Shown: piece after piece, positions 4,613 to 45,018 of the stretch
Position numbering within the stretch: position 1 is the stretch's first letter
Layout of the letters: every line of letters starts with the position of its first letter
Assembly: GCF_025996515.1 (NCBI RefSeq)
Contig: NZ_BLRH01000055.1
Span: 372,001-436,000 of the forward strand
Reading direction: 5' to 3'
Origin: Rhizohabitans arisaemae
GTDB lineage: Bacteria; Actinomycetota; Actinomycetes; Streptosporangiales; Streptosporangiaceae
DNA length: 64,000 nt
Notes under the pieces: model-generated
Database searches by the model: none
Told to the model about the DNA's origin: nothing
Seen by the model: the letters and a program-made list of their open reading frames with translations, nothing else
Program-made: the position numbers and the translations under genes

Positions 4613-5499
4613 CGGGTGAACGTGGCCGCGAGATAGTCCGCCGCCTCGGTCATGGCGTACCGCTGCAGCGGACCGAAGTACCAGGCCGGGTCGAAGGTCC
4701 GCCGGTAGCGCAGGGTGACGGTCAGCTCGGCCTCGTCCCAGGCGAACTCGGCTTCCCGCAGCTCCACCCAGCGGGCCAGTGTCGTGTCGTCGACCACGGC
4801 GAAGACCACCCGGCCGGGAGTGTGTTCCCGCACCCGGAGGGTCATCGCCCGCGGCTCGGCGACGGCTCCGATGCCGAGGGACTTACGTGGGGTGAAGGTG
4901 ATCGTCCGGAGTGCGCCGACCGCTAGCCCGGTGCCCTCGGCCCGCAGCGGCCGGGGAAAGCCGAGCTTGAGAAACGGCGACTCGAAGGCCGAGAAATCGG
5001 GGGTCTCCGTGAGTGCTCGGCCGACGTCACCCGGCCCGGCCGGGCGGGTGACCGACACCTCCGCCGTCTGGGGCGGCGCCGCGACAGCCATACCGCCCTC
5101 GATCAGTGCGAGCAGCGCGACCGGAACGATGAACGCGTGCGGCCCGCGGCCCCTATTCCTGGCAATCGCATCGAAGATCAATCCGAAGAGTAGTCCCACG
5201 AGGTAGAACAGCGGTGCCGAGAAGAACAGGCAGACGCTCCCCTCGCTGAGCAGGGGACCTGCCAAGGCGAGTCCCACGGTGATGGCCGCCATGATCAATC
5301 CTGTGGCGTTCTTCGGCCGGGCGGTGAGCACCACGGTGATCGCGATGACTGCGGGGAGACCGATGTAGAACAGCGCGGTCTGTTCCAGCCCACGGTCATG
5401 GAGCACCCGGTAAAGCACCATCGCGACGAACACCGCAACCAGCACCGCGACCAGCAGGCGCCGAGCCCGGCCCTGGTTCGGGGAATCGGGGTCTTCCAT
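4609..5499 (-). CDS. Four-helix membrane protein of unknown function
   Basis: 296 residues: four or five hydrophobic helices in the first ~135 residues (LLVAVLVAVFVAMVLY, ALFYIGLPAVIAITVVL, then a long pair near 90-130), then a soluble domain of ~155 residues rich in beta strands that could be SRPBCC-like (TITFTPRKS, TLRVREHTPGRVVFAVVDD). AAGGAG lies eight bases before the ATG. It is the first gene of a two-gene operon with the ICMT-like enzyme. It diverges from a TetR regulator across a perfect operator, so it is probably that regulator's target. Its function is not recognisable. Confidence 0.7.
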   Translation of the reverse strand: MEDPDSPNQGRARRLLVAVLVAVFVAMVLYRVLHDRGLEQTALFYIGLPAVIAITVVLTARPKNATGLIMAAITVGLALAGPLLSEGSVCLFFSAPLFYLVGLLFGLIFDAIARNRGRGPHAFIVPVALLALIEGGMAVAAPPQTAEVSVTRPAGPGDVGRALTETPDFSAFESPFLKLGFPRPLRAEGTGLAVGALRTITFTPRKSLGIGAVAEPRAMTLRVREHTPGRVVFAVVDDTTLARWVELREAEFAWDEAELTVTLRYRRTFDPAWYFGPLQRYAMTEAADYLAATFTR

Positions 5500-5518
5500 G
5501 CCAGACTCCTTAATCGAT

Positions 5519-5542
5519 GGGTTTAATCAGGTGATTAAACCC
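5519..5542. promoter_or_regulatory. TetR operator, 11-bp perfect inverted repeat
   Basis: GGGTTTAATCA and TGATTAAACCC flank a GG centre with no mismatch. The element sits in the 79-base gap between the divergent membrane-protein gene (start 5499) and the TetR gene (start 5579), so one dimer pair could repress both. A TATGCT -10-like hexamer for the TetR gene follows at 5543-5548. Confidence 0.75.
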
Positions 5543-5578
5543 TATGCTTGGTCACGCGGAAGCGACAAGGGGGTTCAG

Positions 5579-6226
5579 GTGACCAAGCAGCCGGGCGAGG
5601 AGACGCGTGAACGGCTGATCGAAGCCGCGTCCGAGGTCATCCGGACCGAGGGGTACGCCGGGACCAGCGCCCGGAACATCGCCAAAACGGCAGGGGTCAA
5701 CTCGGCGCTGGTCTTCTACCACTTCGGCGGTGTCGACCCCCTGCTGCTGGCCGCACTCGACCGTTCATCGGAACAGCGCATGACTGCCTACCAGGAGGCC
5801 GTGACCCGAGCCCGGACCCTGGAACAACTCGTGGAGGTGTCCACTGAGATCTACCGGGCAGACCTCGAAGGCGGGCACATCACCCTCTTCTCCGAACTCG
5901 TCGGCGCCGGCATCGCCCGTCCCGAACTCCGCGCCGAGATCATCAAACGCGCCGAACCCTGGATCTCCTTCATCGAAGAGACCCTGGAGCGGGTCATCGG
6001 CGGGTCTCCCCTGGCCAAGCTGATGCCCCCACGGGACCTGGCCTACGCCGCGATCACCCTCTACCTGGGTATCAACCTGTTCACCCACCTCGACGCCGAC
6101 CGCACCCGCACCGAAGCCCTGTTCGACCTCGCCGCCCGCCTCGCCCCCCGCGCCAAGCTCCTGACCGTCCGCCTCCCCCGCCGCCGCACCCCGGCGCCGA
6201 TTCCACGCCCGCCCGCCGCCACCTGA
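5579..6226 (+). CDS. TetR-family transcriptional repressor
   Basis: 215 residues from the GTG at 5579, preceded by AAGGGGG at 5567-5573. An upstream ATG at 5498 is in frame but would translate through the operator. Residues ~8-55 are the TetR helix-turn-helix (RERLIEAASEVIRTEGYAG, SARNIAKTAGVNSALVFYHF). The remainder is the helical ligand-binding and dimerisation domain, and the C terminus is Arg/Pro-rich. It probably represses itself and the divergent membrane-protein/ICMT operon through 5519-5542. The ligand is unknown. Confidence 0.9.
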   Translation: MTKQPGEETRERLIEAASEVIRTEGYAGTSARNIAKTAGVNSALVFYHFGGVDPLLLAALDRSSEQRMTAYQEAVTRARTLEQLVEVSTEIYRADLEGGHITLFSELVGAGIARPELRAEIIKRAEPWISFIEETLERVIGGSPLAKLMPPRDLAYAAITLYLGINLFTHLDADRTRTEALFDLAARLAPRAKLLTVRLPRRRTPAPIPRPPAAT

Positions 6227-7966: not shown

Positions 7967-8039
7967 GGGGCTATGGCGCAGCTGGTAGCGCGCCTCCATG
8001 GCATGGAGGAGGTCTGGGGTTCGAATCCCCATAGCTCCA
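7967..8039 (+). tRNA. tRNA-Ala(GGC), copy B
   Basis: Same 73 bases as copies A and C: G3-U70 acceptor pair, GGC anticodon in loop ATGGCAT, TTCGAAT T loop, A73, no encoded CCA. It points away from copy A, so the two form an inverted pair around 5.5 kb. Confidence 0.97.
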
Positions 8040-8700
8040 CGCGACTTACCTGGGCTCCCCCTGCTTGTAAGCCCCTTCGGGGCTTACTTCGCCGGAGGGA
8101 GTCTCGTCATTTATCCCAGGAGGATGACCTCCTGGAACCTCCACGTGTGGGGGCTGCCGCCCCCACTCCCCCGCCGGGGTTGCCCTGGTCGCGGGTTTTC
8201 GGGTCCGTGGGTTGTGGTGTGGGCTTGGGTGGGGCTGGTCGGCTTGGTCTTCGCGGGCTTCCTCTGCTTGTAGGCCCCTTCGGGGCTTACGTTGCCGGTG
8301 GGGGCCTTTGTTGTTTCTCCCGGGAGAGTGAGCCACTGTGGTGGGCTGCCGCCCCCACGCCCCGCCGGGGTCACCCCGGTTACGGGTTCTCGGTGGGGGT
8401 GGAGCGGGTCGTTCGACTCAGGCCATTCCGGATTCCCCCTGCTTGCAGGCCCATTCGGAGTTCGCTTCGCCGGAAACAGGCTCGTCGTTCCTCCGGGAGG
8501 GCCATCGACTCCTGGACGCTCCACGTGTGGGGGATGCCGCCCCCACACGCCTGTTGGAGTTATCCCGGTCATGCGACGCGGGTCGAGGGCAGGTCTGATC
8601 GGCTCAAGCCATCCTGGATTCCCTCTGGTTGTAAGCCCATTCGGGGGCTTGGCCTGCCGGAGGGGGTCTCGTCGAAGGGGGACCGTCGTGAAGGTCCGAT
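8040..8700 (+). repeat. Degenerate tandem repeat downstream of tRNA-Ala copy B
   Basis: The hairpin block seen beside copies A and C is present in diverged form: a GTAAGCCCC hairpin at 8067-8087, then the CCAGGAGG hairpin and the GTGGGGGC hairpin. Related units follow. The anchor CTGCTTG or a close variant recurs at 8061, 8264, 8439 and 8625 (spacings 203, 175 and 186), each followed by a GCCC-TTCGG-type sequence and, in the first three, by a CCGCCCCCAC stretch. The long open frame through this region includes the tRNA and is not a gene. Nothing else is recognisable in the 678 bases between the tRNA and the ABC gene. Confidence 0.75.
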
Positions 8701-8717
8701 GTAGAGGCGGGTGGTGC

Positions 8718-10565
8718 TCAGATGAGGGGTTGGGGGACGGGGTCGGAGTCGTCGCGGTAGCCGCTGGCTTGGGTTTCGAAGAGGCGGGCGTATCGGCTGC
8801 CCGCGCTGACCAGTTCACGGTGGGTGCCCTGTTCGACGAGCATGCCGCCGCTCAGGACGACGATCAGGTCGGCGTCGCGGACCGCGCCGAGCCGGTGGGA
8901 GACGAGCAGGCTGGTCTGCCCGGCGCGGTGCTCGCGGAGCCGCCGGTGGACCTCGTACTCGGCCTGCGGGTCCAGGCCTGAGCTGGGTTCGTCGAGGATG
9001 AGCAGGTCCCGGTGTTCCCGTACGACGGCGCGGGCCAGGGCCAGGCGCTGCCACTGGCCGCCGGAGAGCAGCACCCCGGCCTGCGGGTCGTCGTCCTCCG
9101 GCCCGAAGAAGGCCCGGCTCAGCAGGGTGTCGTAGCCGCGGGGCAGGGCACGGATGGTCTCGTCCACGCCCGCGGTCACCGCGGCGGCCCGGATTCTGGC
9201 CCGGTCGGTCATCGCCGCGAGTTCCCCGACGCCGATGTTCTCGGCCGCGGTCAGGTCGTAGCTCATGTAGTCCTGGAAGAGTACGCCCATTCTGGCGCGC
9301 AGTTCGGCCGGCGGCACTTCGCGGATGTCGACCCCGTCCCAGAGGATGCTGCCCCTGGTCGGATCGTAGAAGCGGCAGAGCAGTTTGATCAGCGTGGTCT
9401 TCCCGGCCCCGTTGAGTCCGACCAGCGCGACCGACGTGCCGCGGCGGATCGTCAGGTTGACCCCGCGGAGCACCCAGGGATGCCCGGCGTCGTAGCGGAA
9501 CCACACGTCGCGGAGTTCGATGCCGTGCCGCAGCGTGGGCAGGGTCGCCGGTCGCAGGGGCGGGCACAGGTCGTCGGGGAGCGCCATCACGCGTTCGTGG
9601 TACCCGAAGAGGAGCAGCGCCTGGCTCGCCACGGCGGCGTTCTCCACGGTGGCGATCAGCGCGGCCTGCGTCCCGGCCACGGCGGCGGCGAAGGCGGTGA
9701 CGTCGCCGAGGGTGAGCCGCCCGGCGAGCGCGGAGTACACGGCCCAGATCAGCCCGGCGCCGCTGACGGCGGCGGACAGCGCGGCGAGCGCCGACTGGGT
9801 GAACGCCTCCCGGCGGTCGAGGCGCCGCTCGCCGCCTTGAAGGGTGGCCAGTTCCCCGAGGACCCGGCGTTTGAGGAAGTCGCCGAGCCCGAAGAGCCGG
9901 ACCTCTTTGGCGGCTTGGACGTCGGTGATGAGGGTGGAGTAGAAGATCTGCCGCCGGGCCGCCGCGGACTGCCCCGCGATCATCCGGACCCGCCGCCGTT
10001 CCAGGGACATCCTGGCGAGCAGGATGGGGAGCGCGGCGAGCGCCACGAGTCCCGCCATCAGGGGGCTGAGCACGGCCAGGGCGGCGAACAGCCCGGCGAG
10101 GGCGATGACGTTGCGCGCGAGGTCGAACAGGCCGGAGGTGACCGGCCCCATCGCGCCTCCGGTGGCCTGGGTCGCCGTCCGGAGTTCGTCGAGGAACTCG
10201 GGGTTCTCGAACCGCGACAGACCTTGGAAGCCGTTCACCTTCGTGTAGAGGCGGTCCTGCAGCACCATGTCGAGCCGGCGATCCGTCTCGGCTCGGAGGT
10301 ATCCGGTGAGGTGCGGCAGCACCCCGGCGAACAGCCCGAGGGCGACGAGGGCGCCGACCGGCCCCGCCACGGTGCCGGTCCCGCCGGCCGTCAGCCCGTC
10401 GATCAGCAGTTTGGTCGTCCACACGGTGGCCGCGGGCAGCAGCCCGGCCAGGACCGTGACCACCAGCTGGGACAGCACGAGGACGGGCCCGGCCTGCCGG
10501 CACAGCGAAGCCACGGCGGCCAGGCGCCGGAGCCTGGCCGCGCGTGGTGCCGGACGGCCGGTCAT
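8718..10565 (-). CDS. ABC exporter, fused permease and ATPase
   Basis: 615 residues from the ATG at 10563-10565, which overlaps the stop of the upstream thioredoxin-like gene (ATGA). Residues ~20-320 are a six-helix type-I exporter membrane domain. From ~350 on is the ATPase with Walker A GLNGAGKTTL, Q-loop LFQDYMSYDL, signature LSGGQWQRLALARA, Walker B LLILDEPSSG and switch VSHRLG. There is no N-terminal C39 peptidase, so leader cleavage would need another enzyme. It is the last gene of the cluster for a small six-cysteine peptide, and export of that peptide is the likeliest role. The substrate is inferred from context. Confidence 0.88.
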   Translation of the reverse strand: MTGRPAPRAARLRRLAAVASLCRQAGPVLVLSQLVVTVLAGLLPAATVWTTKLLIDGLTAGGTGTVAGPVGALVALGLFAGVLPHLTGYLRAETDRRLDMVLQDRLYTKVNGFQGLSRFENPEFLDELRTATQATGGAMGPVTSGLFDLARNVIALAGLFAALAVLSPLMAGLVALAALPILLARMSLERRRVRMIAGQSAAARRQIFYSTLITDVQAAKEVRLFGLGDFLKRRVLGELATLQGGERRLDRREAFTQSALAALSAAVSGAGLIWAVYSALAGRLTLGDVTAFAAAVAGTQAALIATVENAAVASQALLLFGYHERVMALPDDLCPPLRPATLPTLRHGIELRDVWFRYDAGHPWVLRGVNLTIRRGTSVALVGLNGAGKTTLIKLLCRFYDPTRGSILWDGVDIREVPPAELRARMGVLFQDYMSYDLTAAENIGVGELAAMTDRARIRAAAVTAGVDETIRALPRGYDTLLSRAFFGPEDDDPQAGVLLSGGQWQRLALARAVVREHRDLLILDEPSSGLDPQAEYEVHRRLREHRAGQTSLLVSHRLGAVRDADLIVVLSGGMLVEQGTHRELVSAGSRYARLFETQASGYRDDSDPVPQPLI

Positions 10566-11056
10566 GTCGCGCCCGCCGCGGCCAGGATGTGGTCCGGTTC
10601 GGTGTCCGCCGCCACGATCGTCCCGTCGGGTCCGACCCGGAGGAACATCGGGAAGACCTGCAGCCCGAGAGCGTGCGCCACCCGGTCCGCGTCGTCGCCG
10701 GTGACGACGTTCGCCACACCGTCCACCGCCTGGATGAGGTCGGCCGCCTTCCCGATGTCGCCGACGACCGCCACCAGGGCGGTCCGGCCCTCGGCCAGTT
10801 CGGCGAACCGGGGCGCACGCTCGTGGCAGGTGTCGCATTCGACGTCGAAGAACGCCACGACATCGGTGGCCGCGGCCCCCGCGGGCATGGCGCGGCCGAC
10901 GAGGGCGGCGGGATCGTACGGGGTGAGCGCGGCCCCGCCGAGCCGCCCGAGCTGGGCGGTGTGCTCACGGAGCCGGCGGAGTATCCCCAGGGCCAGCACC
11001 AGGTTGAGCAGGCAGAGCGCGCCGACGAACACGACGGCGGCGATCAGGAAAGGCAT
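10562..11056 (-). CDS. Membrane-anchored MauD/TlpA-like thiol-disulfide protein
   Basis: 164 residues. An N-terminal membrane anchor (residues ~3-27) is followed by a thioredoxin-like domain with the redox pair C74-x-x-C77 in FDVECDTCHERAP and a PMFLRVGPDG strand near the end. The order MauE-like gene then this gene mirrors methylamine dehydrogenase clusters, where MauE and MauD are needed to form the disulfides of the small subunit. Here the small cysteine-rich product is the 64-residue peptide encoded upstream. It overlaps the ABC gene start by four bases and follows the MauE-like gene by 15 bases. Confidence 0.8.
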   Translation of the reverse strand: MPFLIAAVVFVGALCLLNLVLALGILRRLREHTAQLGRLGGAALTPYDPAALVGRAMPAGAAATDVVAFFDVECDTCHERAPRFAELAEGRTALVAVVGDIGKAADLIQAVDGVANVVTGDDADRVAHALGLQVFPMFLRVGPDGTIVAADTEPDHILAAAGAT

Positions 11057-11071
11057 CGGGCACCCTCATTT

Positions 11072-11602
11072 TCAGGCGGTGAACAGCTCCATCAGGTCGT
11101 CGAGGCGCACCACAAGAAGCGCCCCGACGACGGCGGCGGCGAGGGCTAGGGCGACCCCGGCCGGGTGCGCCGCGGCACCCCCGGCGGCCCAGGCCACGAG
11201 CCCGGTGCAGCCGATCGCCGTCAGGATGAGATTGCGTATCACGTGCGCGGGTCCGAGCGGCGTGGCGGTGCGGCCGAAACATCGGCACGGCGTCCGCCGC
11301 CCCCGGCGCAACGCGATCAGGACACCTCCGGTCAGGACGGCGAGCGTCCCGGTGGCGGCGGCGAACCCCAGGGGCGCCGTCGGCGGTGACACCAGCAGAA
11401 GCGGCGTCACCGCCTCAGCCCCCACCAGGGCATACGCCGCCACCGCGGATCCGGCTCGGGAGAAGATGCCAAGGGTCGTGAGGGAAGCCGTGAACTCCTG
11501 GAACGCGGTACGCCCGCGGACCTTCCCGGCGACCGCGATCAGGAAGACCGTGATCAGCAGCGCCCGGCAGGCGATCTCGACGTATGGCATCTCCGCCACC
11601 AC
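11072..11602 (-). CDS. MauE/DoxX-type redox membrane protein
   Basis: 176 residues from a GTG at 11600-11602 (an ATG four codons further in is an alternative). It has four or more transmembrane helices: ACRALLITVFLIAVAGKVRG at the start, then VAAYALVGAEAVTPLLLV, AATGTLAVLTGGVLIAL and two near the C terminus. The motif TPCRCFG between helices is the cysteine loop of MauE proteins. The family works in the membrane in disulfide formation or electron transfer to a periplasmic or external partner. It lies directly downstream of the cysteine-rich peptide gene, separated by a strong hairpin. Confidence 0.85.
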   Translation of the reverse strand: MVAEMPYVEIACRALLITVFLIAVAGKVRGRTAFQEFTASLTTLGIFSRAGSAVAAYALVGAEAVTPLLLVSPPTAPLGFAAATGTLAVLTGGVLIALRRGRRTPCRCFGRTATPLGPAHVIRNLILTAIGCTGLVAWAAGGAAAHPAGVALALAAAVVGALLVVRLDDLMELFTA

Positions 11603-11612
11603 CTCGTGTCCG

Positions 11613-11638
11613 GGTCTGGCGGCGCCCGCCGCCAGACC
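11613..11638 (-). terminator. Intercistronic hairpin after the cysteine-rich peptide gene
   Basis: Arms 11613-11623 and 11628-11638 are perfect 11-bp complements around a 4-base loop. The hairpin begins 12 bases after the peptide's stop codon and has no U tract. Such a structure can act as a partial terminator or 3' stabiliser, giving more precursor peptide than downstream enzymes. Confidence 0.65.
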
Positions 11639-11650
11639 GATGCCTTCCGC

Positions 11651-11845
11651 TTAGGCGCCGCACCTCCGGTACACGTAGCAGGCGCCGCAGTAGGTCCTGC
11701 CGCCGATGTTGGTGCAGAGCTTGCGGTAGTCCGAGCGCTCCCGGCAGTAGCAGTGCACGTACCACTCGGCGGCGGCCTGCGCCGACGCCTTCGGCGCCAG
11801 CTTCTCTACGATCCGATCACCAAGCCGGCCCAAGAGACTGGTCAT
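11651..11845 (-). CDS. Six-cysteine small peptide, putative secreted precursor
   Basis: 64 residues with an excellent ribosome site (AAAGGAG nine bases before the ATG). The first ~24 residues are an amphipathic helix (LLGRLGDRIVEKLAPK) ending in repeated A-x-A motifs (ASAQAAA). This looks like a leader but lacks a hydrophobic core. The rest is a short basic, aromatic core with cysteines at 32, 34, 44, 53, 56 and 62, enough for three disulfides, and Trp28 plus many Tyr. The leader resembles in style the start of MauA, the methylamine dehydrogenase small subunit, but MauA is far larger and has more cysteines. Position before MauE, MauD-like and ABC genes suggests a disulfide-rich exported peptide. 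I do not recognise its family, and activity is unknown. Confidence 0.75.
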   Translation of the reverse strand: MTSLLGRLGDRIVEKLAPKASAQAAAEWYVHCYCRERSDYRKLCTNIGGRTYCGACYVYRRCGA

Positions 11846-11897
11846 GGATTCGCTCCTTTCCTAGCGATTCGGTGGACCGAAAGCTAGCGGGGAGGCA

Positions 11898-11927
11898 TAC
11901 AGCGACCGATACAGCCGCACTACAAAC
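11898..11927 (-). promoter_or_regulatory. Putative SARP-binding direct repeats upstream of the peptide gene
   Basis: On the reverse strand the heptamers GTTTGTA, GGCTGTA and CGCTGTA start 11 and 12 bases apart, one helical turn each, as SARP/AfsR regulators require. They end about 50 bases upstream of the peptide ATG, and a TAGCTT -10-like hexamer follows 11 bases after the last one. The first heptamer overlaps the stop codon of the SARP gene itself. Confidence 0.6.
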
Positions 11928-14823
11928 CGGCGGTGAGCAGCCTCTCCAGCACCGGATCCCGCCGCATCGCGCGACCGGCGAAGAGTTCCGCGGCCCGTCC
12001 GGCGTCCGCCGCGGCACGGGGATCCCCCAAGGCCGTACGGGCCCTGGCGAGCTGACGCAGGCAGGCGGCCTGGCCGTAGACGTCGCCGGTCCGGGTGGTC
12101 AGTTCCAGCACGGGTTCCAGGTCGGCCACGGCCGCCGCGGGGTCACCCCGGCGCAGCCAGAGCTCGGATCTGCTGAGCAGCACCTGCCACTCATCCTCCC
12201 GGTTGCCGGTCTCCGCGCAGCGGACCAGCGCCTCCGCCCACACGGCCAGCGCCCGCTCCCCCTCGTCGAGCAGCAGGTGGGCGCGGCCGAGCGCGGCCAG
12301 GGTGATGCTCTCGCCGTACAGATCGCCGTCCGCCCGTCGGACGGAGAGGCACCGCTGGAGCCGGTCCGCCGCCTCGGCGTACCGGCCCAGCCCGAGCAGC
12401 ACCTCGCCCAGGTTGTGGCTGACCATCCCGACCCGTTCCAGCCCGTGCGCCTCGAGCAGCCGCAACGCCGCGGTGAAGTGGCCGAGCGCGGCGTCGAGGT
12501 CGCCGGTCTGCATGCTGATCCAGCCGAGGTTGTGCAGTGCCCGCCCCTCCCCGGCACGGTCGCCCGACTCCCGCCAGAGTTCGAGCGCCCGGCGCGTCAG
12601 GTCGACCGCCGCCTCGGCCCGGCCGGTCCGAAGCTCCGCGAGTCCGAGCGTCACGAGCGTGGACGCCTCCGCGTCGCCGTCACCGGTGCGCCGCGCCACC
12701 TCGACGGCGAGGCGGGCGACGGTTTCGAGCTCCTGCCAGTATCCGCCTTTCATCGCCACGGATTTGATCGTGGCCATCAGCTCGACGACGAAAAGGGGGA
12801 TGTCGCCCTCCCCTGCCGCGGCCTGTACGGCTACCGCGACCAGGCAGCGCAGCTCCGTGTCGAACCACCGTACGGCCGTGGCGGGGTCGTTCAGGACGAG
12901 GCCGGTGTCGTGCCCGTCCGTCTTCCCTCCGCCGGATCCCAGATGTGGCTGAATCAGCCCGTGCATCCGCCGGCAGAGGCCGAGATACCAGTCGAGGGCG
13001 CGCCGGACGGCGTGTTCCCGTTCCTCAGGCGGTTCGCAGGCGACGGCCAGTTCCCCGGCGAACAGCCGGAGCAGATCGTGGGTACGGAAGCGGTCGTCGC
13101 CGACCGGCTCCATCAGGCGCGCCTCGGTCAGCTCGTCGAGCGCGGCTTCGGCGTCCTTGGCGTCGACGCCGGCCAGGGCGGCGACCAGTCCGACGCCGAC
13201 CTCGGGCACGTCCAGCATGCCGAACAGGCGGAAGGTCCGCTGCGCGACACTCGTCAGGCTCTCGTAGCCCACCTCGAAGCAGGACCGGAGCCGCAGGTCG
13301 GCGGCCTGCAGCTCGTCCAGCCGCCGCCGCTGGTTCCGCAGCCGCCCGCCGAACCGCGCGAGCGACCAGTCGGGACGGCTCGCCAGCCGGGCACCCGCGA
13401 TGCGCAGCGCCAGCGGATAGTGGCCGCACCAGTGCGCGATCTCGGCCGCCGCCTCCGGCTCCGCCTCCACCCGCTCCCGACCGGCCAGCAACCCCAGCAT
13501 CAGCACCGCCTGCGCCTCGTCGAACCGGTCCACGACGATCTGTACGGCGTCCACGGTGGTCAGCGCCGACCGGCTGGTGACCAGCGCCGCGCAACCGTCG
13601 CCCGCCGGCAGCAACGGCGCCACCTGGGCGGCGCCGACCGCGTTGTCCAGGACGACCAGGACCCGCCGCTCGGCCAGCATCGACTGGTACGCGGCGGCCG
13701 CCTCCGCCGGTGCCGCCGGAACCTCACCCGGTCGCATGCCCAGGGCGCGCAGGAAGCGGCCGAGCACCTCGGCCGGACGCAGCGGCGGCAGGCCGGGGGT
13801 CGACCCCTGCAGGTCCACGTACAGCTGGCCGCCGGGGTATCGATCGGCCGCGTCGTGGGCCGCCCGCAACGCGAGGATCGACTTGCCGACCCCACCGGTC
13901 CCGTGCAGCGCGAGCACCGGCCGCCCCGCACCCGGCTCCGGATCGTCGCGGAGTACGGCCTGGAGCCGGGTGAGCTCGGCCGACCGCCCGACGAACACCG
14001 TGGGGGCCCGCGGAAGCTGCCGGGGAGCCGGGTGCCCGTCGTCGGCGGCCACGGCGCGCTCGGAGGCCAGGAGTGCGGGGTCCCGGCGCAGCACCGCCTG
14101 GTGCAGTCGGCCCAGTTCGGGCCCGGGGTCGATGCCGAGTTCGTCGGCGAGGATCCGCCGCGCGGATCCGAACGCGTCGAGCGCGCCGGCCACGTCGCCC
14201 CTCCGGTAGCGGGCGAGCATCAGCTGGGCGTGCAGCCGTTCGCGCAGGGGATACCGGCCGATCACCTCGCTGAGCAGGGCGGCGGCGGCCTCGTTCTTGC
14301 CGAGGGTCAGCCGGATCTCCGTGTGCTCCTCCACGACGCTCAGGTAGCCGTCGGTGAGGCGGGCGACCTCCTCACGAAGGGTGTGTCCCAGGGGTACGTC
14401 CTCCGCCGCCGACCCCTCCCACAGTGCGAGGCCCCGGGCGAAGGCGTCCTCCGCGCCGCGGAGGTCACGCCGGTTCAGCGCCTGGCGACCGCGTGCGGAC
14501 AGCGCCTCGAACCGATGGAGGTCGAGCTCTCCGGGTTCGACCCGCAGCAGGTAACCGGCCTCCGAGGTGACCAGCCGTTCGACGGTGGGGTCGGCCATGG
14601 GCGGGAGCAGTTTCCGCAGCTGCATCAGATACGTGCGCAGGTTCGCCACCGCGGAGTCGGGCGGCCGGTCGTCCCAGACCTCCGTGACCAGTGACCGGAG
14701 CGAGACGACGTGACCGGACCGCACGAGGAGCATGGCCAGGACGGTGCGCTGTTTGGGCGCTGTGATCTTGACGGGTGAACCGTCGAGGAGGACCCGCAGG
14801 GGGCCGAGTATCCGGAACTCCAT
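11920..14823 (-). CDS. SARP/AfsR-type regulator with NB-ARC and TPR domains
   Basis: 967 residues. Domains in order: an OmpR-like winged helix (residues ~1-95, MEFRILGPLRVLLDG, KQRTVLAMLLVRSGHVVS), a bacterial transcriptional activator domain (~97-245), an NB-ARC ATPase (~265-560; P-loop LHGTGGVGKSILALRAA, then VLVVLDNAVGAAQVAPLLP), and C-terminal tetratricopeptide repeats (~650-960; LHNLGWISMQTGDLDAALGHF). This is the full AfsR architecture, used as a pathway activator of secondary-metabolite genes. It starts 13 bases after the signal peptidase stop and lies immediately upstream of the peptide gene. It probably activates that gene through 11898-11927. Confidence 0.92.
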   Translation of the reverse strand: MEFRILGPLRVLLDGSPVKITAPKQRTVLAMLLVRSGHVVSLRSLVTEVWDDRPPDSAVANLRTYLMQLRKLLPPMADPTVERLVTSEAGYLLRVEPGELDLHRFEALSARGRQALNRRDLRGAEDAFARGLALWEGSAAEDVPLGHTLREEVARLTDGYLSVVEEHTEIRLTLGKNEAAAALLSEVIGRYPLRERLHAQLMLARYRRGDVAGALDAFGSARRILADELGIDPGPELGRLHQAVLRRDPALLASERAVAADDGHPAPRQLPRAPTVFVGRSAELTRLQAVLRDDPEPGAGRPVLALHGTGGVGKSILALRAAHDAADRYPGGQLYVDLQGSTPGLPPLRPAEVLGRFLRALGMRPGEVPAAPAEAAAAYQSMLAERRVLVVLDNAVGAAQVAPLLPAGDGCAALVTSRSALTTVDAVQIVVDRFDEAQAVLMLGLLAGRERVEAEPEAAAEIAHWCGHYPLALRIAGARLASRPDWSLARFGGRLRNQRRRLDELQAADLRLRSCFEVGYESLTSVAQRTFRLFGMLDVPEVGVGLVAALAGVDAKDAEAALDELTEARLMEPVGDDRFRTHDLLRLFAGELAVACEPPEEREHAVRRALDWYLGLCRRMHGLIQPHLGSGGGKTDGHDTGLVLNDPATAVRWFDTELRCLVAVAVQAAAGEGDIPLFVVELMATIKSVAMKGGYWQELETVARLAVEVARRTGDGDAEASTLVTLGLAELRTGRAEAAVDLTRRALELWRESGDRAGEGRALHNLGWISMQTGDLDAALGHFTAALRLLEAHGLERVGMVSHNLGEVLLGLGRYAEAADRLQRCLSVRRADGDLYGESITLAALGRAHLLLDEGERALAVWAEALVRCAETGNREDEWQVLLSRSELWLRRGDPAAAVADLEPVLELTTRTGDVYGQAACLRQLARARTALGDPRAAADAGRAAELFAGRAMRRDPVLERLLTAGL

Positions 14824-14836
14824 AAGCGTGCGGTCC

Positions 14837-15292
14837 TTACCGCGCGAGCGCGGGCCCGCCCAGGCGGCGCAGCGCGATCCCGAGCAGGCGGTCGGCGGGG
14901 TAGAACCCGCGCTGCCGGGAGTCTACGCCGTCGGGGTTGTCGCCGTAGACCACCAGCGAGCCGGCCGGTACGCGCGTCACGGTTTCGTCCACGGCGATCC
15001 CGCGGGGTACGGGGTCTCCGGGCGTCGCGACGATGCGCTTGATGTGTCGGCGCCTGCCGGGCGGCAGGGGGATGTGCCGTCCGGCGGGGGCGGGCGGAGG
15101 TTCCAGCACCACGATGTCGCCTCTGCCCACCTGGTCGATCCGCCTGCGCCGGACCAGGACCCGGTCCCCGTCGTCGAGGGTCGGCGCCATGCTCGTCCCG
15201 TCGACCGTGACCACCACGTAGCGGCGGCGGACCAGCAGGGCCGCCGCCCCCAGGACAAGAGCCACCAGCATGCCCCCGCCGATCAACTTCAT
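14837..15292 (-). CDS. Type I signal peptidase (S26 family)
   Basis: 151 residues from the ATG at 15290-15292, preceded by GGGGGAG. One N-terminal membrane helix (residues ~5-21) is followed by the catalytic boxes: Ser34 in DGTSMAPTL, the general base Lys85 in HIKRIVATPGD, and box E YGDNPDGVDSRQRGF. It is short, as in many actinobacterial accessory signal peptidases. As first gene of the peptide cluster, possibly cotranscribed with the SARP gene, it may be dedicated to cleaving the peptide's leader after an A-x-A motif. A general role in secretion cannot be excluded. Confidence 0.88.
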   Translation of the reverse strand: MKLIGGGMLVALVLGAAALLVRRRYVVVTVDGTSMAPTLDDGDRVLVRRRRIDQVGRGDIVVLEPPPAPAGRHIPLPPGRRRHIKRIVATPGDPVPRGIAVDETVTRVPAGSLVVYGDNPDGVDSRQRGFYPADRLLGIALRRLGGPALAR

Positions 15293-15337
15293 CGTGTGCT
15301 CCCCCGGCCGACCCGCGACGACAGATCCGTTCGGGAA

Positions 15338-15367
15338 ACAATCGCGTCGGCCTCGGAACGCTGTCAA
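15338..15367 (-). promoter_or_regulatory. Promoter of the signal peptidase-SARP operon
   Basis: On the reverse strand a consensus -35 TTGACA (15362-15367) lies 18 bases before GATTGT (15338-15343). The signal peptidase ATG follows 46 bases after the -10. No other promoter-like sequence stands out in 15293-15546. Confidence 0.5.
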
Positions 15368-15421
15368 CCGCCCGCCCGGTCGCGGGAACCCCCGGGGGAG
15401 GGACCGTACGGCCGGCGGCGG

Positions 15422-15518
15422 CTCGCGTGCCGCCGTACCGGCACTCGGTTCGTGGCGAACTCGCCGACCGTCTGGGCGAACTCGTCGTCTCGCGTGCCGC
15501 CGTACCGGCACTCGGTTC
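15422..15518. repeat. Perfect 30-bp direct repeat, two copies
   Basis: Bases 15422-15451 are repeated exactly at 15489-15518, 67 bases apart, in the non-coding stretch between the orphan gene at 15547 and the signal peptidase promoter. The unit contains GCCGCCGTACCGGCA. Its role is unknown; it could reflect a small tandem duplication. Confidence 0.6.
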
Positions 15519-15546
15519 CCCGGCGGCTCCGGCGGGGTCGGCGCCG

Positions 15547-16671
15547 TCAGTACATGGTCAGCGCCCACGTGGCGAGCTTGCCCGCCTCGGTGTCCCGCTC
15601 CGCCTCACGCTCAAGCCGCACGCGGATCTCGGGGTCCGGCGCCGGCCGGGGCGGCAGGTGCAGGTTGACGAGCCCGAGCACCGCGCTGTGGCGCAGCCGA
15701 TCGGAGACGTCGCGGTCGAGGACGGCGGCGAGCCGCCCGGGGAGGCCGGGAACGCCGCCGCCGATCCGTCCGGCGAGTTCGGCGGCGGCCACGGCGGCCT
15801 CGTCCGATCCGCCGAGCGAGGCGTCCAGTTCCCGCAGGAGGGTGCGGCGGTCGTCGTCGCCGCGGGCGACTTCGGCGAGCGCGTACAGCGCCAGGCCGAG
15901 CGCGCCGCCGCGCAGGTCCGGGAGCAGGGAGACGAGGGTCTGCCACGCGCCGGGCACGCGCCGGGCGCAGCGTTCGACTTCGGGGACGAGGTCGTGCATC
16001 TCGCCGCCGGCGCGGACGAGGGCGACGAGCAGCTCCGGTGAGGGCTCCGCCGTGCGCGCCAGGTACCAGGCCGCGCTGGGGGCGTTCTCGCCGCTCAGCA
16101 TGTTCAGCATCGCGGCGCGGAAGCGCGGTTCGGGCCGCAGCTTCGTGCAGGGGCCGCACAGGCATCGCTCGCGTGCCGTGGCGTACTGCTTGCGCTCCCG
16201 GTCGGTGAGCTCGGTCACGTCGACGAATCTGTCGTCGCCGTGCAGCCCGTCTTCACTGACGGACCACAGGTCGCCGCGGAGTTCCACGTAGCGCTCGTCA
16301 CCGGCGAGAAGGTCGGCCAAGGGGGAGGGCTCATCCCCCAGCGAGAGCCCGTGCTTGTCCGCCAGCCGGGTGAAACGGTCCCGGTCCGCGGCGAGAGCGA
16401 GCCGGAACCAGTGCTCCCACACCCACGCCGATCGCGCGGCGCAGCCGGCGTAGTCGCGGAACGTCCACTCCAGCCGCTCACCGTCGGCTCCCCAGAGGTC
16501 TCTGTCCCGGGCGTCCTCGACCGCTTCCGACAGATACTCATAAACCCCGTTGTTTGCCGACGAGGCGGTATACATGCGGATGAACTCCTGCACGTCTTCC
16601 CAGATCGCCTCGTGCAGCGCAGCACGATCCCCATCACCCGACACTTTTAGCGAAATCAGAGCGGCACCCAT
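15547..16671 (-). CDS. Hypothetical protein, possibly HEAT-like in its C-terminal half
   Basis: 374 residues that I do not recognise. The N-terminal half is acidic with many Trp and Tyr. Near residue 170 there is a compact cysteine cluster, ERCLCGPCTK, that could bind metal. The C-terminal ~180 residues are Ala/Leu-rich helices (PELLVALVRAGGEMHDLVPEVE, LLPDLRGGALGLALYALAEVA in parts) reminiscent of HEAT repeats. The ATG follows a TACGAT hexamer by seven bases, so the message may be leaderless. An inverted and direct repeat at 16701-16740 lies just upstream and may regulate it. Its orientation matches the peptide cluster, but a 255-base gap separates them. Confidence 0.65.
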   Translation of the reverse strand: MGAALISLKVSGDGDRAALHEAIWEDVQEFIRMYTASSANNGVYEYLSEAVEDARDRDLWGADGERLEWTFRDYAGCAARSAWVWEHWFRLALAADRDRFTRLADKHGLSLGDEPSPLADLLAGDERYVELRGDLWSVSEDGLHGDDRFVDVTELTDRERKQYATARERCLCGPCTKLRPEPRFRAAMLNMLSGENAPSAAWYLARTAEPSPELLVALVRAGGEMHDLVPEVERCARRVPGAWQTLVSLLPDLRGGALGLALYALAEVARGDDDRRTLLRELDASLGGSDEAAVAAAELAGRIGGGVPGLPGRLAAVLDRDVSDRLRHSAVLGLVNLHLPPRPAPDPEIRVRLEREAERDTEAGKLATWALTMY

Positions 16672-16867: not shown

Positions 16868-17785
16868 TCAGGTGGCCTCCCCGGCGGGGACCGTACGGCC
16901 GGAGGCAGCGCGGGCGGCGCGGCGGCGTTTGGCCGATAGGAAGGCCTCGATGACGGCGGCGGCGGGGGCGCCGATCGGACCGGCGGGGCGGGCCAGCAGG
17001 ATCTCCCGGGGCGGGAAGGCCTGCCGGATGCCGATGGCCGGCAGGCCGGCGTTCTCTGCCACGCAGCGCGGGACGATGGCGACGCCGACGTCGGCCTGGA
17101 CCAGCGAGACCAGCAGCGTCATCTGGCCGAGGTCGGCCACGACGGTACGGGCCGTCCCCAGGACCTCGTCGTTGACCTGGCGGAGTGTGCTGCCTTTGAG
17201 GAATTCGACCCACGCCTCGTCGGCCAGTTCGTCGAGGTCCACCGTCACCCGGTCGGCGAGCCGGTGCGCCGCCGACGTGATCAGGACGAAGTCCTCGCGG
17301 TGCAGCGCCTGCAGATGCACTCCGGGGGGTTGGTCGGCGAGGGCGGGAACCACGGCCAGGTCCAGCCGGCCCTTCGCCACGTCGATGAGCATGGCGGGGG
17401 GCTGACCGTCGCGGAGATGCACGGAGAGTCCCGGATGGCGCTTACGGAGATCGGCCATGGCACCCGGGATGTCGATCCCCTCCAATGTCTGAATAATCCC
17501 GATTCTGACCGTGCCGGTGAGCAGACCGCTGACCGCCGAGACGCCGTCGCGGGCCTCGCGGGCGGTGGCCAGCAACCGGCGGGCCGCGGGCAGGAACACC
17601 CGGCCGGCCTCGGTGAGCTGAACGGTCCGGCTGTCCCGGGCGAACAGGACCGTGTTCAGGTCGCGCTCAAGCGCCCGGATCGACGATGAGACCGACGACT
17701 GACCCAGGTGCAGCCGCTCGGCGGCCCTGGAGAAGTTGAGCTCCTGGGCGACCGCGACGAAGTGCTCTACCTGCCGCAACTCCAT
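16868..17785 (-). CDS. LysR-family transcriptional regulator
   Basis: 305 residues, the usual LysR length. Residues 1-60 hold the winged helix-turn-helix (MELRQVEHFVAVAQELNFSR, AAERLHLGQSSVSSSIRALE), and from ~90 on is the two-lobed effector domain (GTVRIGIIQTLEG, QADVGVAIVPRCVAE). It diverges from the amidohydrolase-transporter operon, the classic arrangement for a LysR regulator and its target. The effector is probably a substrate or product of that pathway, by inference. Confidence 0.93.
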   Translation of the reverse strand: MELRQVEHFVAVAQELNFSRAAERLHLGQSSVSSSIRALERDLNTVLFARDSRTVQLTEAGRVFLPAARRLLATAREARDGVSAVSGLLTGTVRIGIIQTLEGIDIPGAMADLRKRHPGLSVHLRDGQPPAMLIDVAKGRLDLAVVPALADQPPGVHLQALHREDFVLITSAAHRLADRVTVDLDELADEAWVEFLKGSTLRQVNDEVLGTARTVVADLGQMTLLVSLVQADVGVAIVPRCVAENAGLPAIGIRQAFPPREILLARPAGPIGAPAAAVIEAFLSAKRRRAARAASGRTVPAGEAT

Positions 17786-44526: not shown

Positions 44527-45018
44527 TCAGGCCTTGACTTCCGGTGTCCCGGCCGATGCGGCTTCGGCCGGGGCGGGCGTCCGCTCCGGCACTCCGGTGA
44601 GCAGGGATCCGCCTCGCTTGCCGAACACGAGGTAGTCCAGGCTGAGCCGTCCGGCGCCGGTGACGGCGAGGAGCAGGCAGAGCCCGCCGAGGGTGAGCAC
44701 GTACTCGTACCCGCCGTCGGAGAGAAGCAGGCCGTTGCCGAGGTGGACGTAGAAGGCCGCCCCCGCCATCACCACGACGAGCGCGAGTGAGGCGAGCGGG
44801 GTCAGCAGGCCGAGGATGAGCAGGCCGCCCCCGCCGAGCTCGGCGACCAGGGCGAACAGTGCGGAGATCTCGGGCATCGGGATGCCCAGGTCGGCGAACG
44901 ACTGGGCGAGCTCGCCGTGCCCTTTCTGATACTTCTGCCAGCCGTGCGCCAGGAACACGGCACCGACCGCGACGCGGGCGACGAGTGCCCCGACGTCTTG
45001 CGCGATTCTTCTTACCAT
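44527..45018 (-). CDS. DoxX-family membrane protein, copy 1
   Basis: 163 residues from the ATG at 45016-45018, with AAAAGGAG eight bases upstream. It has four transmembrane helices, beginning VGAVFLAHGWQKYQKGHGEL, then LFALVAELGGGGLLILGLLT, LASLALVVVMAGAAFYVHLG and YVLTLGGLCLLLAVTGAGRL. DoxX proteins act in redox or quinone-linked membrane processes; in mycobacteria they associate with superoxide detoxification. It is a clear paralogue of the next gene, with similar upstream sequence, so they arose by tandem duplication. Confidence 0.9.
   Translation of the reverse strand: MVRRIAQDVGALVARVAVGAVFLAHGWQKYQKGHGELAQSFADLGIPMPEISALFALVAELGGGGLLILGLLTPLASLALVVVMAGAAFYVHLGNGLLLSDGGYEYVLTLGGLCLLLAVTGAGRLSLDYLVFGKRGGSLLTGVPERTPAPAEAASAGTPEVKA

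Follow-up and report, generated by a model that had tools for sequence, protein, structure and literature searches.

A probable cassette for the production, trimming and export of a three-disulfide peptide in a soil actinobacterium

Introduction

A six-gene cassette of a soil actinobacterium probably directs the synthesis of a small peptide with three disulfide bonds, its trimming and its export. It occupies positions 8718-15292 of the minus strand of the window, by which is meant the whole stretch of 64,000 nucleotides of Rhizohabitans arisaemae that was analysed, and contains genes for an S26 peptidase, a SARP regulator, a 64-residue peptide, a MauE-like protein, a TlpA-like protein and an ABC exporter. 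Judging from its sequence, the cluster is quite likely to be an assembly line dedicated to a single exported peptide rich in disulfides, within a large actinobacterial family. A further proposal, held tentatively and with a reasonable chance of being right, is that it works as an inward-facing disulfide factory in which the MauE C-x-C, the tethered TlpA-like C-x-x-C and the protease act in the cytoplasm before export.

The precursor peptide and its regulation

All six genes lie on the minus strand in the order that the first-pass annotation had given, and the cluster ends at 15292 instead of at the 15367 proposed there. The overlapping starts reported at the end of the cluster correspond to an overlap of four bases (ATGA, 10565-10562) between the TlpA and ABC genes, and Pfam backs the gene identities for MauE, the BTAD domain of the regulator, S26 and ABC (2.8e-23, 2.7e-38, 1.2e-20 and 4.2e-30, respectively). 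The peptide gene (P0001, 11651-11845, minus strand) indeed encodes 64 residues with six cysteines, at positions 32, 34, 44, 53, 56 and 62. It is a real gene and more than a chance open reading frame, as indicated by its ribosome-binding site (AAAGGAG), its GC content at codon positions 1, 2 and 3 (0.54, 0.55 and 0.91), the comparison with its orthologue L096 (dN 0.17, dS 0.66) and its conserved family.

By sequence comparison, P0001 is a member of a large family in which an amphipathic leader ending in A-x-A is followed by a diversified core. As in RiPPs, the cluster encodes a precursor with a conserved leader and a variable core, along with thiol-chemistry genes and a protease as candidate modification enzymes. 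The leader (residues 1-24; 11774-11845, minus strand) is delimited by alanine conservation, amphipathicity and a structural model: alanine is found at -1 in 105 and at -3 in 100 of 107 distinct precursors, and the amphipathic moment exceeded the mean of the leader's own shuffles in 102 of 102 tested, five short leaders being skipped. The predicted helix, residues 5-16, sits in a low-confidence part of the AF2 model. The A-x-A boundary is, like a direct repeat at 11884-11915, an addition to the first-pass annotation.

Two familiar export routes were considered and rejected. The best 10-residue hydropathy of the 102 leaders has a median of 1.0, a 95th percentile of 1.65 and a maximum of 2.12, and the hydrophobic signal core of a Sec-secreted peptide was not found in them, the Sec reference being general knowledge with none scored. 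In the same way, a double-glycine bacteriocin with a C39 exporter does not fit a leader that ends in A-x-A, and there is no C39 peptidase domain among the Pfam matches of the exporter at E<=1. P0001 and 29 precursors gave only weak or implausible matches in Pfam and NCBIfam (best 0.0016 to CYYR1 and 0.0022 to blaTHIN). The peptide matched no PDB sequence or profile and its model no PDB fold (best E 0.47).

The SARP/AfsR-type regulator (P0005, 967 residues; 11920-14823, minus strand) contains BTAD, NB-ARC and TPR domains. Upstream of the peptide gene, the direct repeat GCTGTAT-N5-GCTGTAT-N10-TAG (11884-11915, minus strand) is a putative SARP operator and -10 region. With up to three mismatches the pattern matches once in the window (0.02 expected), the GCTGTAT pair occurs once in the 8.3-Mb genome of the organism with at most one mismatch, and the repeat is kept at equal spacing upstream of the peptide gene in four orthologues (L078, L094, L095 and L096). 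This unique repeat speaks for the SARP control that had been proposed; the regulator would bind it and switch on the peptide, MauE, TlpA and ABC genes. A hairpin upstream of the peptide gene was also considered and abandoned, since the orthologues are predicted to fold in different ways. Rfam, at its cut-offs, gave no match in positions 8000-16000.

The machinery and its orientation in the membrane

The proposed leader peptidase is an S26 signal-peptidase-like protein (P0006, 151 residues; 14837-15292, minus strand; PF10502) that scores 69.2 bits against TIGR02227 (cut-off 47) and whose S34 and K85 are invariant in five aligned members. The MauE-like membrane protein (11072-11590, minus strand, with an alternative GTG start at 11602) belongs to PF07291 with 83.1 bits against a gathering cut-off of 27. 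Its C-R-C-F-G loop is invariant in 19 aligned members, and its AF2 model reaches a pLDDT of 91.6, with no match in the PDB by sequence profile or by fold. The membrane-anchored TlpA/ResA-like protein (P0003, 164 residues; 10562-11056, minus strand) carries the motif C-D-T-C. On its own it has no significant Pfam match; four of five aligned members match AhpC-TSA, and the profile of the members finds ResA structures in the PDB (6.2e-9), which places it among TlpA/ResA thioredoxin folds with a C-x-x-C. Finally, the ABC exporter (615 residues; 8718-10565, minus strand) has ABC_membrane and ABC_tran domains; the translation P0002, which starts from 10838, adds 91 residues upstream of the start at 10565.

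The distribution of charges around the membrane helices is uniform in two of the three families. In MauE the charges lie on the side of the C-x-C loop in 101/101 proteins, and TlpA has no lysine or arginine before its membrane helix and a mean of 3.4 after it in all 89 alignable members. S26 has an inward bias in 65/79 and a tie or the opposite bias in the other 14. The bias is reversed in two housekeeping signal peptidases of the same genome (L180 and L181) and in its lipoprotein-like TlpA protein (L190). These charges suggest a cytoplasmic location for the TlpA domain, the loop of MauE and the majority of S26 domains, so oxidation and cutting probably take place before export.

The 24-residue leader, amphipathic and devoid of a Sec signal, would bring the precursor to the membrane machinery. 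There the C-x-x-C of the TlpA-like protein would take electrons from the core thiols and pass them to the MauE C-x-C, and MauE would release them, probably to quinone; in this way the six cysteines would be joined in three disulfides. The S26 protease, whose catalytic pair and target motif are both observed, would cut after A-x-A, and the product would leave through the ABC exporter, where a search for a domain that cuts leaders found none. For the window this would be a peptide of 40 residues with a calculated monoisotopic mass of 4709.06 Da with three disulfides. Lasso peptides with McjD likewise are processed in the cell and leave as finished peptides through an ABC exporter without a C39 domain; none of the six genes here is of lasso type, and the chemistry is that of thiols. 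The maturation protease of nickel superoxide dismutase (TIGR02754) is also of S26 type and is said to act in the cytoplasm, whereas the S26 proteases here have a membrane helix, and P0006 scores 37.3 bits against that model, under its cut-off of 63.25.

Nevertheless, TlpA/ResA proteins are usually reductants outside the membrane, so both the direction and the side of the redox reaction given here are predictions. In a cluster of ordinary polarity, the full precursor would be exported by the ABC protein, and S26, TlpA and MauE would work at the outer surface of the membrane, in the manner of conventional secretion. An outward orientation is usual for signal peptidases and for most TlpA/ResA proteins bound to the membrane, A-x-A is similar to the site of signal peptidase I, the outside favours disulfide formation, and the 14 S26 proteins without inward bias are in keeping with it. 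Against it stand the inward bias of all the MauE and alignable TlpA proteins and of most S26 proteins, and the opposite charges of the three comparison proteins of the genome, and we regard an outward arrangement as rather unlikely.

Distribution and co-conservation of the cassette

The family extends over 16 genera. A profile made from the leader only gave 112 matches in 121 loci and none in reversed DNA. Among 40 loci selected by TlpA (L054-L093), all contain a precursor, which the profile detected in 38 of them at E<0.6 and inspection by eye in the other two (L080 and L082). Among 76 loci selected by MauE, a precursor was found in 54/59 with TlpA and ABC and in 2/17 without them (Fisher 6e-10, for a profile that already included members of this sample); both exceptions lie on cut contigs, and a further precursor in this group was found by eye (L109). 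The peptide is thus conserved beside MauE, TlpA and ABC in relatives, and MauE that lacks both partners is mostly without it, which upholds the overall reading of the first-pass annotation. MauE is not an obligatory member, since it is present in only 24/40 TlpA-selected loci and absent from L013.

The precursor is closely tied to its partners, at a median of 72 bp from the nearest one (under 1 kb in 79/79, L074-L169) and on the TlpA strand in 70 of these 79. C28 carries seven precursors with their own machinery, of which the leaders share an identity of 0.59, the cores 0.41 and the cores without cysteines 0.29. Departures from the full set were also found. In the TlpA-selected loci MauE is missing at 16/40 and S26 at 4/40; L013 has precursor, TlpA and S26, and its 19.5 kb revealed neither MauE nor ABC; L159 has MauE and TlpA without peptide and ABC; and an orphan precursor on C33 has no adjoining machinery. 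L011 of genome G027, used as a leader seed and excluded from every count, consists of a leader and a few cysteines followed by a long repetitive open frame; all partners are absent, and the genome gave no TlpA match.

Over 396 genomes of the phylum, the peptide profile found at least two genomes, the organism's own and G151; a search with the TlpA profile at E<=1e-25 likewise gave at least two. Both figures are lower bounds, since scoring was limited to a few first-look candidates in each genome (16 and 8). In plasmids, MauE gave a single partial match and TlpA none. The neighbours in 98 loci were clustered in search of an immunity gene, with core genes masked and frames of at least 45 residues, a procedure that shorter or fast-changing genes would escape. 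No family was present in more than 10 loci, the most shared being SARP-type regulators (10 of 98 at most).

Cysteines of the core

The window core (residues 25-64; 11654-11773, minus strand) has the pattern C-x-C-x9-C-x8-C-x2-C-x5-C and is predicted to be beta-rich, with an AF2 pLDDT of about 85 over residues 31-60; five of its cysteines are invariant in 12 aligned members. Across the family, cores span 22 to 58 residues and 4 to 12 cysteines. All 107 distinct cores have at least four, compared with 7.3% of background tails. The number is even in 62/64 core clusters, an excess with p = 1e-16, 1e-8 or 7e-4 under three nulls. The 0.5 null is too generous because the background tails (last 40 residues) are themselves mostly even, in 68% of those with at least four cysteines and 83% of those with at least six. 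The even count supports the predicted disulfides of what had been described as a disulfide-rich peptide.

Other roles for these residues can be envisaged. Cysteine makes up 18% of core residues and TlpA-type proteins can be reductants, so that the core could bind a metal or cofactor while the redox proteins keep its thiols reduced, as a metallophore or metallothionein-like peptide. This is improbable in view of the even counts with a gap at seven (31, 1 and 22 clusters for six, seven and eight cysteines), the free spacing (65 patterns among 107 cores) and the neighbours, which share no metal-transport family. The cores are also rich in tyrosine (8.4%) and tryptophan (4.2%), as might be expected if the redox proteins installed chemistry beyond plain disulfides, such as Cys-aromatic links, and the even count were incidental. 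The thioredoxin fold and the C-x-C point instead to thiol exchange, and the neighbour clustering revealed no further enzyme family in more than 10 of the 98 loci, which makes such chemistry very improbable.

Relation to known systems

The first-pass annotation did not recognise the pathway, yet mauE/mauD clusters with Cys-rich precursors had been flagged by decRiPPter in 2020 (PMC7794033). Three candidate RiPP families of Streptomyces with mauE, one of them also with mauD, were described, with precursors of at least eight cysteines in clusters filtered for a transporter, a peptidase and a regulator, and mauE/mauD were proposed to modify the precursor (PMC7794033). The window has the same arrangement of mauE beside a Cys-rich precursor with these three functions, its core having six cysteines instead of at least eight. 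A precursor of the present family was found at E<0.05 in 17/20 Streptomyces loci. The decRiPPter mauE families are likely the same as the family described here. The section that presents the three Streptomyces families gives no experiment on them and no leader, A-x-A, even-cysteine rule, operator, topology or spread over 16 genera (PMC7794033). Among the papers listed by a literature search that covered few subscription papers and no bioRxiv preprints, this one alone bears on the system.

Actifensins, defensin-like bacteriocins of Actinomyces, are also exported actinobacterial peptides with six cysteines, have 37 residues and a mass that fits three disulfides, and are encoded in an operon with several precursors, several ABC genes, a subtilisin-like protease, a LuxR regulator and a GA-type site (PMC6989792). 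The passages on this operon mention neither MauE nor TlpA, both of which are in the window cluster, and no defensin domain or fold was found here, by Pfam for 29 precursors or by PDB profile search.

The formation of disulfides by MauE in the maturation of methylamine dehydrogenase is a matter of speculation, according to PMC7794033. The combination of MauE with a MauD/TlpA-like protein is shared with the window, and the cluster could thus be a relic or variant of that system with the peptide as its small quinoprotein subunit; this is exceedingly improbable, because the peptide and the genome have no PF02975 match (the latter weak, as 14 control genomes also gave none), a large-subunit gene is, as had been noted, absent from the six, and the cores vary freely in length and cysteine number. 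Here, instead of a light-chain family, there are ABC export, an S26 protease and a short diversified peptide.

Conclusion

The same cassette recurs in many relatives with other peptides, and it therefore seems to be a widespread route to knotted peptides that has yet to be named. Neither Pfam nor NCBIfam names the precursors, although more than half of the 341 genomes sampled from the bacterial family of the window contain the TlpA-like marker. If the proposed assembly line is right, a route dedicated to disulfide-rich peptides, in which the leader is conserved and the core is free to vary, would be attractive for engineering knotted peptides in bacteria. In addition, the cluster offers a simple system for testing MauE, whose role in disulfide formation has so far been speculation. 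An inward-facing machinery, if true, would form disulfides despite the reducing cytoplasm, as the reverse of the Dsb-type systems, which usually face outward, and would define a separate class of peptides whose cores, with 4 to 12 cysteines, vary freely. With active sites that face the cytoplasm, it would show how a cell can deliberately make disulfides in its own interior.

Organization of the cluster and its relatives

The cluster in the window (G000:C54:372001-436000, part of an 8.3-Mb draft genome) consists of six co-directional genes on the minus strand, spanning 15292 down to 8718, which confirms the first-pass annotation. In this order, they encode an S26 protease resembling signal peptidases, a regulator of the SARP/AfsR type, a six-cysteine peptide of 64 residues, a MauE-like membrane protein, a tethered thioredoxin-fold protein of the TlpA/ResA kind and an ABC exporter, with a four-base overlap between the TlpA and ABC genes. 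The likely start of the exporter (8718-10565, minus strand) lies downstream of the start used in its translation P0002, which extends further upstream, and no C39 peptidase domain was found in the exporter. LysR and TetR regulators flank the cluster at 16868-17785 (minus strand) and 5498-6226 (plus strand). A partial MauE-like match above the Pfam cut-off is located at a distance, at 44743-44988 on the minus strand, and the genome holds six MauE matches above cut-off, counting that of the cluster.

A protein search (E<=0.001) gave peptide matches in 5 of 100 related genomes; its own genome is one of these five, with three further matches, each at ~350 kb on contig C28. There, seven different precursors surround a second TlpA-ABC-S26-MauE set (L009:11079-16965); their mean identity is 0.59 in the leaders, 0.41 in the cores and 0.29 in the cores without cysteines. 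Profile search added a ninth precursor of this genome on contig C33 (L170:8875-9111), near a SARP-like gene. Export and redox machinery was not found beside this orphan, which could use that of C28 in trans.

In the orthologous loci of Nonomuraea solani (L096), Streptosporangium minutum and canum (L094 and L095) and in L078, the peptide is likewise found near S26, SARP, MauE, TlpA and ABC genes. Pairwise dN and dS of the peptide gene were 0.17 and 0.66 against L096, and 0.20 and 0.68 against L078. As for the four other genomes matched in the 100-genome search, all four partners (TlpA, ABC, S26 and MauE) are present in L010 and L012, L013 has TlpA and S26 with neither MauE nor ABC found, and L011 has no partner gene at the locus. 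The L011 frame (G027; L011:10711-11000), in which a leader and a few cysteines give way to a long, repetitive open stretch, is perhaps a decayed or altered precursor; it served as a leader seed and was left out of all counts of prevalence and anatomy.

Distribution of the precursor

TlpA-like profile matches (E<=1e-6) were observed in 190 of 341 genomes of the window's bacterial family, 16 of them weaker than 1e-25. Forty loci, some from one genome, were selected on this basis, the first 20 at E 1e-69 to 2e-52 and the other 20 at 7e-48 to 6e-46, the lower end among the matches listed. A precursor is present in all 40: the final leader profile (E<0.6) detected 38, and those of L080 and L082 were recognized by eye. 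No seed had come from eight of the first 20, some being close relatives of seeds, and the first profile detected their precursors at E<=1e-7, its best background match being 0.68. ABC accompanied the precursor in 40/40 loci, S26 in 36, MauE in 24 and SARP in 12.

A second sample of 76 named loci was picked by MauE alone. The peptide proved to be conserved beside MauE in relatives, as expected of the exported six-cysteine peptide pathway with Mau-like redox maturation proposed in the first-pass annotation: a precursor (E<0.05) was present in 54 of the 59 loci with both TlpA and ABC versus 2 of the 17 without this pair (L146 and L161, whose contigs are both cut). Among the remaining five, L101 starts at a contig edge while L117, L155, L158 and L162 have a weaker, visible precursor. 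L109 and L159 have TlpA without ABC; a precursor was recognized by eye in L109 and none was found in L159. The leader profile used here had been iterated on matches including this sample, most of whose precursors were already caught by the pre-iteration profile. The two samples overlap, with contigs that seem identical, to judge from their length and peptide, in L102 and L058, L105 and L012, L107 and L066, L127 and L065, L131 and L054, L148 and L077, and L158 and L089. Altogether, 16 named genera have precursors at E<0.05: Streptosporangium, Nonomuraea, Streptomyces, Planobispora, Microtetraspora, Micromonospora, Planomonospora, Dactylosporangium, Actinomadura, Sphaerimonospora, Pseudonocardia, Nocardia, Actinophytocola, Amycolatopsis, Spongiactinospora and Actinoallomurus.

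Leader and core

The core was left out when the leader profile was built, and the leader itself is cysteine-free. This profile gave 112 matches at E<0.05 among 25354 open-frame tails from 121 loci (one being a 16-kb slice of the window) and none on reversed DNA (best 0.39). The 116 matches at E<=0.6 comprise 107 distinct precursors, which fall into 64 clusters when grouped at 60% identity of the core. At least four cysteines are present in 107/107 distinct cores versus 7.3% of background tails. Clusters with 4, 6, 7, 8, 9, 10 and 12 cysteines number 2, 31, 1, 22, 1, 5 and 2, respectively, an even number thus being found in 62 of 64 (p=1e-16 against 0.5). Cysteine-rich background tails are often even too (68% with at least four cysteines, 83% with at least six) because low counts dominate, and against these rates p becomes 1e-8 and 7e-4. 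The clearest sign of pairing is the dip at seven cysteines between 31 and 22 clusters.

Alanine occupies position -1 in 105/107 and position -3 in 100/107 precursors. Leaders are amphipathic, their moment exceeding the shuffle mean in 102/102 tested (five short ones were skipped), and by the general yardstick for Sec signals they are too weakly hydrophobic to resemble them. AlphaFold2 models the window peptide with a beta-rich core (pLDDT about 85 at residues 31-60) and a poorly modelled leader helix; a PDB search with this model returned no match.

Several precursors depart from the common form. L061:6534-6737 has 12 cysteines in a 43-residue core. L080, L082, L109, L117 and L146 form a subfamily with cores like GCSNYYYCSGGVKYLRQCCLNEGC and leaders devoid of the otherwise conserved proline. 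Unlike other loci, L077:24-2269 and L148:10635-13435 show an extra MauE-like frame overlapping an ABC frame beside the precursor, possibly a fusion.

A putative SARP operator

The motif GCTGTAT-N5-GCTGTAT-N10-TAG sits between the SARP and peptide genes. The window has no second match when up to three mismatches are allowed, the repeat pair occurs once in the genome with up to one, and the same repeat and spacing are found in L078, L094, L095 and L096. The binding sites of SARP proteins are direct repeats immediately upstream of the -10 region, mostly with a period of 11 bases, and the repeat found here is therefore the likely operator, with a period of 12 rather than 11. Between the SARP and peptide genes of L068, L071 and L072, another repeat pair, close to GTTGAGAATTC, was seen by eye; its period is 11 bases, as in typical SARP sites.

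Orientation of the redox proteins and protease

With loop limits set by hand from a predicted model, positive charges were found on the two CxC-side loops of MauE in 101/101 sequences, lone MauEs included (means of 8.3 on this side and 0.3 on the other), and CxC was kept in 100/101. For TlpA, a first script, which picked the start codon nearest the helix and was thus biased toward low counts before it, kept 75 of 103 matches from 115 loci (motif, start or hydropathy excluded the other 28) and found K/R after the helix and none before in 75/75. An alignment count independent of start-codon choice gave more K/R after than before the helix in all 89 rows with an aligned N-terminus (means of 0.0 before vs 3.4 after). 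By the first script, with its bias, S26 had more charges after than before the helix in 65 of the 79 sequences kept out of 93, with 8 ties and 6 opposite cases, some of which look like misplaced helices. By eye, three controls from the same genome, two signal peptidases (L180 and L181) and a TlpA protein of lipoprotein-like appearance (L190), have charges before the helix and none after. L191, also lipoprotein-like, is ambiguous, with one before and two after. Of the 15 control loci, the remaining 11 either belong to the cluster itself or lack a clear N-terminal helix.

Under the positive-inside rule, this charge bias suggests that the active sites of MauE, TlpA and S26 would all lie on the cytoplasmic face, an unexpected outcome. 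Such a shared side is internally consistent since the three would act on the same substrate and the exporter loads from the cytoplasm. Moreover, a dedicated oxidase would make sense in the cytoplasm, where reduction needs little help.

Known systems and possible functions

The idea of mauE-linked RiPP modification is prior art: the part of the decRiPPter study concerning mauE describes mauE in three candidate families of Streptomyces, accompanied by mauD in one of them, with precursors of at least 8 cysteines, and argues for a role in RiPP modification (PMC7794033). Searches of open-licence papers returned no definition of one family by its leader, A-x-A site, even cysteine number, operator and topology. 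Actifensins, as presented in part of their description, are products similar to the peptides predicted here but made by different machinery (PMC6989792).

With core genes masked, no other shared family of at least 45 residues occurs in more than 10 of 98 loci, the most widely shared being SARP-type regulators (10 loci). As far as this family test sees, no immunity protein or further modifying enzyme thus appears to be fixed, and the exporter may provide self-protection. A use of the peptides against competitors or as signals is suggested by the diversity of the cores, the tandem copies and the regulators of secondary metabolism; judged from general knowledge, an antimicrobial use is a tentative reading, slightly short of an even chance. 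The C28 cluster, with its seven different precursors, represents a natural peptide library.
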